This document shows positions 18,302 to 20,415 of a DNA stretch of 64,000 bases, in pieces. The stretch covers positions 1 to 64,000 of the forward strand of contig NZ_BMGP01000002.1 in the NCBI RefSeq assembly GCF_014640255.1. The letters run 5' to 3'. Position 1 is the stretch's first letter, and every line of letters begins with the position of its first letter. Both the position numbers and the translations under genes were made by a program. The stretch comes from Subtercola lobariae. Lineage in GTDB: Bacteria; Actinomycetota; Actinomycetes; Actinomycetales; Microbacteriaceae. The notes under the pieces were generated by a model. That model did not search any database. It saw nothing but the letters and a program-made list of their open reading frames with translations, and was not told where the DNA came from.

Positions 18302-18640
18302 ATGGGCCTTTTGTTATACGGCAGCCCCAGCATCGAGATCAGTTTCGACGACCGGGCCCTTCAGCACTTGCAAATCGTCATCACCGCGAAACTGCGCAGA
18401 CGCGAGAGTTTCGTGTTCTCGTGGAACGACTCGGCCGACATCGGCAGCGGCCGCAGTTCGATCTGGCTCGACCCGAGCAGCACGCTGTATTACCGCTACT
18501 ACGGCAGCCGCGTGCCCGCCATCAATCGCGAGTGGGTCGACATTCTGATGGAATCGGCGAACAGCGGCAGCGGATTGTTCTTCTTACCGGAGCCGGGCAC
18601 GGCCGGGCAACAGCCCTCGAACTCGCGACCGAGAATCTAG
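18302..18640 (+). CDS. DUF7882-type small protein, probable rhodopsin partner
   Basis: The 112-residue soluble protein starts MGLLLYGSPSIEISFDDR and contains AKLRRRESFVFSWND, SSIWLDPSSTLYYRYYG and NREWVDILMESANSGSG. This is the small beta-rich protein widespread in Microbacteriaceae, now DUF7882 and often misnamed ATP-dependent DNA ligase; it has no ligase motif. The AGGAG preceding the rhodopsin gene overlaps its TAG stop, so the two are translated from one message. As I recall, cryorhodopsin genes are described as travelling with a tiny neighbour predicted to form a ring that docks on the rhodopsin; this gene fits that place and size. Signalling is inferred, not shown. Confidence 0.75.
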   Translation: MGLLLYGSPSIEISFDDRALQHLQIVITAKLRRRESFVFSWNDSADIGSGRSSIWLDPSSTLYYRYYGSRVPAINREWVDILMESANSGSGLFFLPEPGTAGQQPSNSRPRI

Positions 18641-18649
18641 GAGACTGCC

Positions 18650-19630
18650 GTGGCACCCTGGCAAGAAACGCTCACGCCCGCTGAGTACCAACTCGTCTTC
18701 TACTTTCTCACCGTGGCCGCGCTCGCTCTGTTCGCGGGTTTCATTCGCAGCGTCTTCACCCAGACCGAGGTCGGCTCGCGGTTTCGGCCGGCCGTGATAG
18801 CGCGACTCTCGATCACGGCGGTCGCCAGTCTGACCTATCTCCTGCTGATCGTGACGTTCGCGTCGGCATACACCAAGACGGCAAGCGGTTACCAGCCCGG
18901 CGACGGGGCCGAATCGCTGTGGTCGCTGCGCTACATGGAGTGGTCGGTCAGCGTTCCACTGCTGACCTTCGAGCTGCTCGCGGTGTGCACCCTGGTGGGC
19001 GTCGGTGTTCGGCGCACTCAGTTTCTGGCCGGATCAAGCGCCTTCGCCATGATCTTCGCCGGGTTTCTCGGGGGCGTCGTCATCGATGGCGGAACCAACC
19101 GCACCGCCCTGATCGTGTGCGGCCTGATCAGTTGCGTGTTCTGGGTGCTGACGAACATCGTTCTCATTCGTGCGGTTCGGCGGTCGCTGCCCGGCGTCAC
19201 GCCGCTCGCCGCACTGCTGATGCGAAATGCGACCATTCTGCTGCTCTCGGGCTGGGTGGTGTACCCGCTCGTCTTCGCCATTCAGATCTGGGGTTCGGGC
19301 GCGGCCTGGGCGACCACCATGCAGATCGCCCTGTGTTCGGCAGATGTGATCGTCAAACTCGGTTTCGGCACGCTCATTCAGCGCGTCGCGAAGCTTCGCA
19401 CGGCAGAAGATGTGCGCGCCGGTGACGATGTGCACGCCGAATCCATTTGGATCTCGTCGGTCAAACAGTCCGACGCCGGCCGGCCCCTCGAGGTTCACCT
19501 GGCCGAGGGCGCTCAGGTGCATCCGCGTCACGCCAGACCACCGATGAGTGCGGCAGTGCCCGCTGCGGCACCGCTCGAGGCCGACGACGGCGACGAGACA
19601 GACGACGAGTCGGGCGTGCCTCAGCTGTAG
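18650..19630 (+). CDS. Microbial rhodopsin, cryorhodopsin-like
   Basis: This 326-residue protein has seven helices and the retinal site: Schiff-base Lys236 and counterion Asp232 in DVIVKLGFG (helix G), and WVVYP in helix F. Helix C reads RYMEWSVSVPLLTFE, so the bacteriorhodopsin D85/T89/D96 positions are Glu97, Ser101 and Glu108. Leu105 at the green/blue tuning site favours green absorption. Arg52 in helix B aligns with bacteriorhodopsin Thr46, near the cytoplasmic donor; a buried cytoplasmic arginine is the published hallmark of cryorhodopsins. Residues 246-326 form a hydrophilic, acidic tail. Start is GTG 9 nt after the DUF7882 stop, with AGGAG at 18639-18643. No retinal-synthesis gene is in the window. 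Confidence 0.9.
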   Translation: MAPWQETLTPAEYQLVFYFLTVAALALFAGFIRSVFTQTEVGSRFRPAVIARLSITAVASLTYLLLIVTFASAYTKTASGYQPGDGAESLWSLRYMEWSVSVPLLTFELLAVCTLVGVGVRRTQFLAGSSAFAMIFAGFLGGVVIDGGTNRTALIVCGLISCVFWVLTNIVLIRAVRRSLPGVTPLAALLMRNATILLLSGWVVYPLVFAIQIWGSGAAWATTMQIALCSADVIVKLGFGTLIQRVAKLRTAEDVRAGDDVHAESIWISSVKQSDAGRPLEVHLAEGAQVHPRHARPPMSAAVPAAAPLEADDGDETDDESGVPQL

Positions 19631-19639
19631 TGCTGAAGC

Positions 19640-20020
19640 TCAGCGGCCGGTGAGCGCCGAAGCGCAGACGAATGCCGCGGCGACTCCCCCGACGATCAGG
19701 GCGAACACCGACAGGGCGATGAGCAGCCCCCCGCCCGAGGTGAGTCTGGCGCCTGCAGGATGCCCGGCGGTAGCGACGAGCGACCGATGAGCAACGCGGT
19801 AACGGCGGTCGGCTCGCGCCATGAAGAACGCCGCCGCCGCGAGCCCGAGCAGGCCGAGAACGTAGGCGGTCAGCCCGAAGACCGGGCTCAGAATTCGGGC
19901 ACCGGCCAGCGAGCCCAGTGCTAGTGAGAGGCCTGTTCGGCGCCAGGCCAACGCGGTGCGTTCGGCCTGCAGCCCGCGGTCGAAGGGAGCGTCAGAGAGC
20001 GAGCGTGCCGCTTTCGACAT
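19640..20020 (-). CDS. DUF202 family membrane protein
   Basis: The 126-residue protein contains the DUF202 signature GLQAERTALAWRRTGLSL followed by three predicted helices (residues 28-45, 50-70 and 98-122). It lies 11 nt after a second DUF202 protein on the same strand, an arrangement usual for this family, and the two probably form a complex. Function is unknown. The gene converges with the rhodopsin gene, only 9 nt from its stop. Confidence 0.85.
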   Translation of the reverse strand: MSKAARSLSDAPFDRGLQAERTALAWRRTGLSLALGSLAGARILSPVFGLTAYVLGLLGLAAAAFFMARADRRYRVAHRSLVATAGHPAGARLTSGGGLLIALSVFALIVGGVAAAFVCASALTGR

Positions 20021-20031
20021 GGCGGTGCGCT

Positions 20032-20415
20032 CTAGTTTCCGCTGGCGAACAGCAGCCCGAGCACCACGAACAGCCCGGCGAAGATGACGGCGAGCCCCAG
20101 AGGCCCCGCGAGAACGGGGGTGGGCAGAGGCTGATTCTGACGCAATGCCTTCTCAGTGCGCATCCACCCGAACCAGGCCTGAAGTGGCGAGAGAATGCCG
20201 GCGACGATGAGCACGAGGGACGCGATCAGGCGAAAATCGGGGTTCAGCGGCAGCCCGAACGCCTCGAGTGCAACACCGGCGGCGATGAGGGCGAGGGCGG
20301 TGCGAATCCAGGCGAGAAAGGTGCGCTCGTTGGCGAGCGAGAACCGCGGGTCGGGCTCATCGCCCACGCCGAACACCTTGCGCGGAAAGCGCCGCGGCGC
20401 CCCGTTCTCTACCAT
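20032..20415 (-). CDS. YidH-like DUF202 family membrane protein
   Basis: The 127-residue protein carries the other DUF202 subtype: RFSLANERTFLAWIRTALALIAAGVALE, followed by two more helices (residues 63-82 and 103-124). It is the upstream gene of the DUF202 pair. The start is the ATG at 20415 (MVENGAPRR). The divergent phosphorylase gene starts 94 bp away. Confidence 0.87.
   Translation of the reverse strand: MVENGAPRRFPRKVFGVGDEPDPRFSLANERTFLAWIRTALALIAAGVALEAFGLPLNPDFRLIASLVLIVAGILSPLQAWFGWMRTEKALRQNQPLPTPVLAGPLGLAVIFAGLFVVLGLLFASGN

Follow-up and report, generated by a model that had tools for sequence, protein, structure and literature searches.

Organization of the locus

The window, a stretch of 64,000 nucleotides from Subtercola lobariae (contig NZ_BMGP01000002.1), encodes on its forward strand a small DUF7882 protein followed by a rhodopsin, and this pair is a member of the published cryorhodopsin (CryoR) group. 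Its features, with the evidence for each in brackets, are:

18302-18640, + strand: DUF7882 gene of the CryoR-type subclass, 112 aa (PF25355, E = 9.6e-37)
18639-18643, + strand: AGGAG ribosome-binding site of the rhodopsin gene, overlapping the DUF7882 stop codon (sequence)
18650-19630, + strand: cryorhodopsin gene, GTG start, 326 aa, motif RRESEDK (PF01036, E = 1.5e-19; PDB matches; trees)
18803-18805, + strand: codon of Arg52, at the bacteriorhodopsin Thr46 position in predicted helix B, residues 43-73 (alignments, model)
18938-18973, + strand: Glu97/Ser101/Glu108, the helix-C motif E-S-E, corresponding to the counter-ion, Thr89 and Asp96 positions (alignment)
19343-19357, + strand: Asp232, second counter-ion, and Lys236, retinal Schiff base (alignment)
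19388-19480, + strand: tail core, spanning residues 247-277 (conservation of 94% among 35 CryoRs; partly common to sister rhodopsins without a DUF7882 neighbour)
19481-19555, + strand: CryoR-only tail module, residues 278-302, candidate DUF7882 docking element (motif in 35/35 CryoRs and 0/29 sisters; tail search of 299 genomes)
19556-19627, + strand: acidic C-terminal end, residues 303-326, poorly conserved (conservation, composition)

The small protein matches PF25355 over its full length (1-97 of 97 positions) with 125.3 bits against a cut-off of 27, and the rhodopsin is the sole PF01036 match that a profile search found in its genome; NCBIfam matched neither. The coordinates are confirmed, and alignment returned the same Arg52, Glu97, Ser101, Glu108, Asp232 and Lys236 as the first-pass annotation had read, to which Arg94 can be added. 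The 112-residue DUF7882 neighbour described there is likewise borne out by PF25355 and the sequence: its TAG lies 9 nt upstream of the rhodopsin GTG on the same strand, and the rhodopsin ribosome site overlaps its stop. The proposed location of Arg52 in helix B is upheld by the predicted model of a fusion of the two proteins (see below), in which helix B comprises residues 43-73 and Arg52 lies inside it.

Directly 3' of the rhodopsin are two convergent genes for DUF202 membrane proteins (19640-20415, - strand), which are common to the two closest loci from metagenome-assembled genomes (MAGs) and absent from the other Subtercola-group CryoR loci compared.

Relationship to the cryorhodopsins

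The CryoRs, with members CryoR1 to CryoR5 and structures in the PDB 8r0k and 8r0p series, were described in Science Advances in 2025 (PMC12227055), where they are defined by an arginine at the Thr46 position and the motif RRXXXDK. Visible light converts them to a deprotonated UV-absorbing state lasting minutes, which blue light resets, and the helix-B arginine stabilizes that state, flipping so as to form a barrier against reprotonation (PMC12227055). CryoR1 moves protons inward, and the group has been proposed to act as UV sensors (PMC12227055). In all the genomes analysed in that study a gene adjoins or overlaps the CryoR gene, its family being deposited as DUF7882, and an AlphaFold3 prediction has a pentameric ring that touches the rhodopsin tail, a short strand of which completes the sheet of the ring (PMC12227055). 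The cytoplasmic arginine and the ring-associated small neighbour that the first-pass annotation drew from the literature are thus indeed published, the ring as a prediction, and the pair as such was already known, since a CryoR with a DUF7882 neighbour is described there.

The window pair resembles the CryoRs in the arginine at the Thr46 position, the long conserved tail, the adjoining DUF7882 gene and the Microbacteriaceae host, and its seven-letter motif RRESEDK is the same as that of CryoR2. The E-S-E triad also occurs in three other CryoRs (L121, L124 and L134) scattered over the tree and hence is not a mark of kinship with CryoR2. A phmmer search of the PDB recovered CryoR2 (8r0p, E = 1.6e-114) and CryoR1 (8r0k, 9.7e-98), followed by Gll0198 (1.3e-19), the CryoR1 match standing ~257 bits above the next entry.

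Relatives were collected from two sources. A PF01036 profile search of 299 Microbacteriaceae genomes found matches in 84, at 103 places in total, of which 32 lower-scoring ones were taken with their flanks and 30 high-scoring ones as loci with 1.5 kb flanks; 37 further high-scoring and three tiny matches were left out of the counts. The window rhodopsin recognized 27 of the 30 high-scoring loci; in all of these the Arg52 position is occupied by Ala or Ser, and the 1.5 kb flank is free of DUF7882. The 32 lower-scoring loci comprise 15 with Arg at position 52, 16 with Gly, Ala or Ser and one broken Arg copy (L101). A scan of GTDB r220 contributed 71 loci (31 Arg, 38 non-Arg, two cut off); as it was queried with tail-core peptides, it finds only rhodopsins having that core. 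Merging by contig and protein, after dropping the broken L101 as well as L175 and L180, whose rhodopsins are truncated at the edge of the retrieved sequence, gave 35 distinct Arg rhodopsins, the window included, and 51 distinct related non-Arg ones.

In a 67-row tree computed with the tails cut off, with three pump-type rows as outgroup and CryoR2 itself not among the rows, the 35 Arg52 rhodopsins form one side of a branch with support 100/99. This clade includes the source species of CryoR1, 3, 4 and 5 (C. levicorallinum, C. frigoriphilum, S. vilae and S. boreus), and the nearest relatives found for the window rhodopsin are those of the Subtercola MAGs RYN_59 (82%) and RYN_58 (78%). Its placement there, apart from ordinary pumps, agrees with the cryorhodopsin-like identity first given to it, and it is probably a light-sensing cryorhodopsin. 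A pump sequence with a branch of 6.4 (L042) fell inside the CryoR clade in the first tree, which we took for an artefact; with it left out of the second tree, the Arg52 group needs one change instead of two.

The DSE rhodopsins and the relatives found here from Geodermatophilaceae and Kineococcus share with the window the tail core AKLRTAEDV..G.D.HPE..W and, in nearly all cases, a Glu at the Asp96 position. In contrast to the window rhodopsin, the DSE-like relatives carry Gly, Ala or Ser in place of Arg52, and they lack both the tail strand module and a DUF7882 neighbour in the flanks examined. The DSE motif itself is D-S-E without a helix-B arginine, whereas the window has E-S-E with Arg52.

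Linkage of rhodopsin and DUF7882

DUF7882 adjoins every one of the 35 distinct Arg52 rhodopsins, and at 33 of them it is cognate, upstream and on the same strand. By a crude estimate from nine genes in 4.09 Mb, the chance of DUF7882 lying close to a given gene is ~0.001, so that the adjacency is not a matter of chance. Stop-to-start gaps in the 30 same-strand GTDB pairs, with start codons of our choosing, range from -14 to +133 nt, and seven pairs overlap. None of the 51 related non-Arg rhodopsins has DUF7882 within the flanks available, which extend ~6-7 kb on either side and are shorter near the ends of contigs. Sixteen of these come from 13 Microbacteriaceae genomes, 12 of which have DUF7882 elsewhere, and their missing neighbour is therefore not due to want of the family; the remaining non-Arg relatives are mostly from other families, where a class-wide sample found no DUF7882. 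Moreover, where a genome or MAG contains two intact pairs (six cases), the split between the pairs sorts each rhodopsin together with its own DUF7882 in both trees. Co-occurrence counts thus show the small gene to be linked to the rhodopsin in relatives too.

The two remaining loci, from Agreia sp. Leaf210 and a second genome of the same genus group (G238), have DUF7882 downstream on the opposite strand. Among the 11 DUF7882 copies of these two genomes, tree and HMM scores picked out no cognate one; both CryoRs retain the whole tail despite this. Judged by tree and profile, the Agreia-type CryoRs are an exception to the published pattern at the level of subclass and orientation.

In a Lacisediminihabitans MAG (L122, 3223-3983) two tandem CryoR-type DUF7882 genes precede the CryoR. 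An S. boreus genome with two intact pairs (G203) carries a third, broken CryoR copy (L101, 2121-3044); the DUF7882 match beside it is likewise short and scores a weak 46 bits, which would fit a joint decay of the two. A related rhodopsin in G097 (L100) has a frame without an alignable Schiff-base lysine and with an unrelated tail at its end, possibly through a frameshift.

The DUF7882 family and its CryoR-linked subclade

At least one DUF7882 copy is present in 193 of the 299 Microbacteriaceae genomes, with a maximum of at least 16, and the window genome has nine. Among the genomes listed for the class-wide sample, nearest kin first, DUF7882 occurs in 13 of 14 Microbacteriaceae against 0 of 282 others, that is, only in this family within the sample. 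In the literature searched, we found it named in PMC12227055 alone.

A tree of 79 DUF7882 proteins unites the 34 members from the 33 same-strand pairs, one locus contributing two, in a single clade with support 98/89 and places those of the Agreia pair outside it. Profile scores separate the same group, with margins of +39 to +60 bits for the CryoR-linked class and at most +9.4 for all others in the set, where each class trained its own HMM and the cut-off for 'CryoR-type' was set after seeing the data. The window protein lies inside the clade with a margin of +55.3 bits for the linked class, and it is the only one of the nine copies of its genome to do so, the other eight scoring at most +4.4; inspection of the surroundings of these eight by eye revealed no recurring neighbour or rhodopsin. 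It also differs from the usual Pfam subclasses in having IWLDPSSTLYYRY as against IWLHPSIPLxFKF. On this evidence from trees and profiles, DUF7882 is a large multi-copy family in which the CryoR-linked proteins are one diagnosable subclade. The monomer model has a pLDDT of 79, only one of five models being confident, and a Foldseek search of the PDB with it gave no match below E 1 (best 1.5), so that the PH-like ring is not reproduced here.

CryoR-type DUF7882 proteins without an adjoining rhodopsin

A profile of the linked DUF7882s, run over the 299 genomes, gave at least 24 matches at 172 bits or more, at least 14 beside a CryoR and at least 10 not. Eight of the 10 have class margins above +30, of which L196 (+33.5) and L198 (+34.3) are below the lowest linked margin (+38.8); L197 (+21) and L199 (+17) were called intermediate and left out. 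In a quick tree, seven of the eight orphans (L193 left out) fall within the linked clade (SH-aLRT 84). Two orphans come from genomes with a CryoR elsewhere (G007 and G076) and six from genomes in which no Arg rhodopsin is known (G153, G286, G168, G193, G078 and G176); four of these six genomes have no PF01036 match at all, while G286 and G193 each have one, classed as pump-like on its score alone. The dependence is hence, as far as gene content tells, one-sided: a CryoR-type DUF7882 occurs without a CryoR in six genomes. The orphan L191 (6001-6312 in G007) directly follows what reads in sequence as a response-regulator-like gene.

The orphans of G153 and G286 stand in the gene order of the window, with DUF58 and MoxR to the left (and TgpA in G286 only) and an epimerase to the right, with no rhodopsin. 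In G153 the DUF7882 gene is directly followed by an MTHFR-like gene, a relative of which follows the rhodopsin in S. vilae. In a tree of eight flanking genes, with nine rows of which two are under half filled, G153 joins three CryoR carriers (100/100), and further carriers, the window among them, are on the other side. This grouping of G153 among CryoR carriers points to loss of the rhodopsin with retention of DUF7882 as the most likely history for that genome. Comparison of three orphans (L190-L192) with linked genes gave dN/dS values of 0.05-0.15, and linked pairs gave 0.03-0.15; with synonymous sites near saturation the ratio cannot date the rhodopsin loss, and the three orphans look like genes under purifying selection.

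Anatomy of the rhodopsin tail

Residues 246-326 make up an 81-residue tail with 16 D/E and 7 K/R. Its core, residues 247-277, is the most conserved part of the CryoR protein, above every helix (94% in the 35 CryoRs against 61-74% for the seven helices), and is 64% conserved in 29 sisters. Residues 278-302, with a strand-like stretch EVHLAEG followed by HPRHARPP, are 68% conserved in CryoRs against 24% in sisters, and the strand-like motif, drawn from the CryoRs after seeing them, is present in 35/35 CryoRs and 0/29 sisters. The first-pass annotation had proposed the tail, described as acidic and 81 residues long, as a possible docking or signalling part. The length stands, and so does the tail as a candidate; the acidity, however, is confined to the last 24 residues (8 D/E, 0 K/R), which are the least conserved (24% in CryoRs with 32% gaps, 8% in sisters). 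We therefore rejected this acidic end as the main docking candidate and turn to the non-acidic part, where we read the strand module 278-302 as the candidate element for DUF7882 docking.

A profile of the tail, searched against the 299 genomes, matched 16 intact Arg rhodopsins over 55-56 of its 56 positions (107.7-124.8 bits). It matched 12 sister rhodopsins at 33.9-55.8 bits, ten over positions 1 to 29-43 and two up to 52 across a stop codon. The remaining matches are one broken CryoR copy and three marginal ones (E 0.004-0.008), one of them in the L100 rhodopsin locus. In this search the whole tail is thus found only on Arg52 rhodopsins, and among the best 22 first-look candidates per genome there was no clear non-rhodopsin carrier. 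Arg52, the DUF7882 neighbour and the tail module, being jointly present in CryoRs and absent from the sisters examined, map to one branch; the arrangement in Agreia would thus be a later change in the neighbour gene.

Because the two genes share a reading frame, translating the TAG as Q joins DUF7882 and rhodopsin into a 442-residue chain, which we modelled with AlphaFold2 as a 1:1 fusion. The structure prediction suggested at the outset succeeded to the extent that both parts folded, but the tail was left undocked on DUF7882, residues 278-302 having a pLDDT of ~51-58 and no strand. Since DUF7882 is tethered in this chain to the extracellular end of the rhodopsin, and a pentamer cannot form, this model is weak evidence either way.

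Retinal supply

The window genome has 0 candidates for Brp/Blh (PF15461), a profile present in 31 of the 299 genomes, and the RPE65-type oxygenase (PF03055) was found in 0 of 19 genomes searched, the window genome included. Phytoene synthase is present in all 19. Of the 13 genomes that carry intact CryoRs, PF15461 was found in six, in one of them split into two pieces; both families are missing from the other seven, whose CryoRs keep Lys236 and Asp232 intact. The words blh, dioxygenase and carotenoid are absent from the main text of the cryorhodopsin paper (PMC12227055).

Functional interpretation

The explanation that we favour, at a probability of about 0.72, is that the window encodes a cryorhodopsin and a co-translated cytoplasmic partner, which as a pair report visible against UV/blue light. 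By analogy to CryoRs with the same residues, the rhodopsin would go through a slow photochromic cycle; its helix-G extension and conserved tail (247-302) would keep a ring of DUF7882 at the membrane, and its state would change the ring or the binding targets of the ring, whereby the pair could report the one light against the other. DUF7882 is in this scheme a putative cytoplasmic partner or adaptor, through which we infer light sensing to proceed. The scheme draws support from the CryoR identity, the helix-B Arg52, the linkage, the conservation of the tail, the paired trees and the published AlphaFold3 ring (PMC12227055). It is weakened by the undocked tail of the fusion, the lack of a PDB fold match, the Agreia loci without a cognate partner, the orphan DUF7882s and the missing retinal genes, and we also count against it that no output gene was identified for the pair. 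The first-pass annotation had called the function of the pair open, which continues to apply mainly to the output step, the pair and the predicted ring having been published in 2025 (PMC12227055).

The tail core and Glu108, being common to most sister rhodopsins, might suggest a DSE-type relative or an ordinary proton pump in which Arg52 is a chance substitution; the single Arg52 clade (100/99), recovered with the tails cut off, and the PDB matches to CryoR2 and CryoR1 make this very improbable. A rhodopsin that remains an apoprotein in this strain, in an operon that is light-independent or decaying, would fit the finding of neither PF15461 nor PF03055 in the genome and the broken CryoR-DUF7882 pair of a congener (L101). 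Such a state sits poorly with the intact Lys236 and Asp232 in seven of the 13 CryoR genomes, all without both families, and with the phytoene synthase of all 19 genomes searched. Aurantimicrobium minutum belongs to the Microbacteriaceae. Without known retinal genes it makes retinal and a working rhodopsin (PMC7734400), a precedent by which missing retinal genes do not mean a dead rhodopsin, and we regard the apoprotein account as unlikely.

A stronger competitor, if still clearly the less probable one, has DUF7882 as an assembly, anchoring or stability factor or a general membrane adaptor, with the rhodopsin alone acting as a UV-gated inward proton translocator. The family is multi-copy and mostly located away from rhodopsins, CryoR-type copies exist without a CryoR (with the three tested looking to be under purifying selection), and CryoR1 moves protons inward (PMC12227055), as such a helper role would have it. 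Conservation of the tail core far above the helices, the confinement of the strand module to CryoRs and a near-universal linkage that a general helper would not need argue for the light-reporting pair instead.

The comparison also suggests how the pair could have come about, namely that an early CryoR plugged into one subclass of a Microbacteriaceae adaptor family via a new tail module. We consider it nearly an even bet, leaning slightly against, that DUF7882 is a Microbacteriaceae-wide adaptor system (with one to sixteen or more paralogues in each genome that has it) and not a dedicated transducer, with the CryoR arising on one branch by gain of the helix-B arginine and the tail strand and plugging into one subclass that retained a light-independent task. 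Such a task would account for the survival of the CryoR-type subclass after loss of the rhodopsin, and the genomes with an empty site would then be natural knock-outs of the light input to an intact pathway.

To the content of those sections of PMC12227055 that were consulted, this analysis adds the wider DUF7882 family, a test of subclass, the anatomy of the tail, and cases of a partner without a rhodopsin and of a rhodopsin without a cognate partner. It yields a candidate docking element (residues 278-302) and a means to tell cognate from non-cognate DUF7882s. With natural strains that keep the partner without the rhodopsin, and others whose CryoRs are without a cognate partner, the putative transducer role of DUF7882 becomes directly testable in culturable Subtercola.
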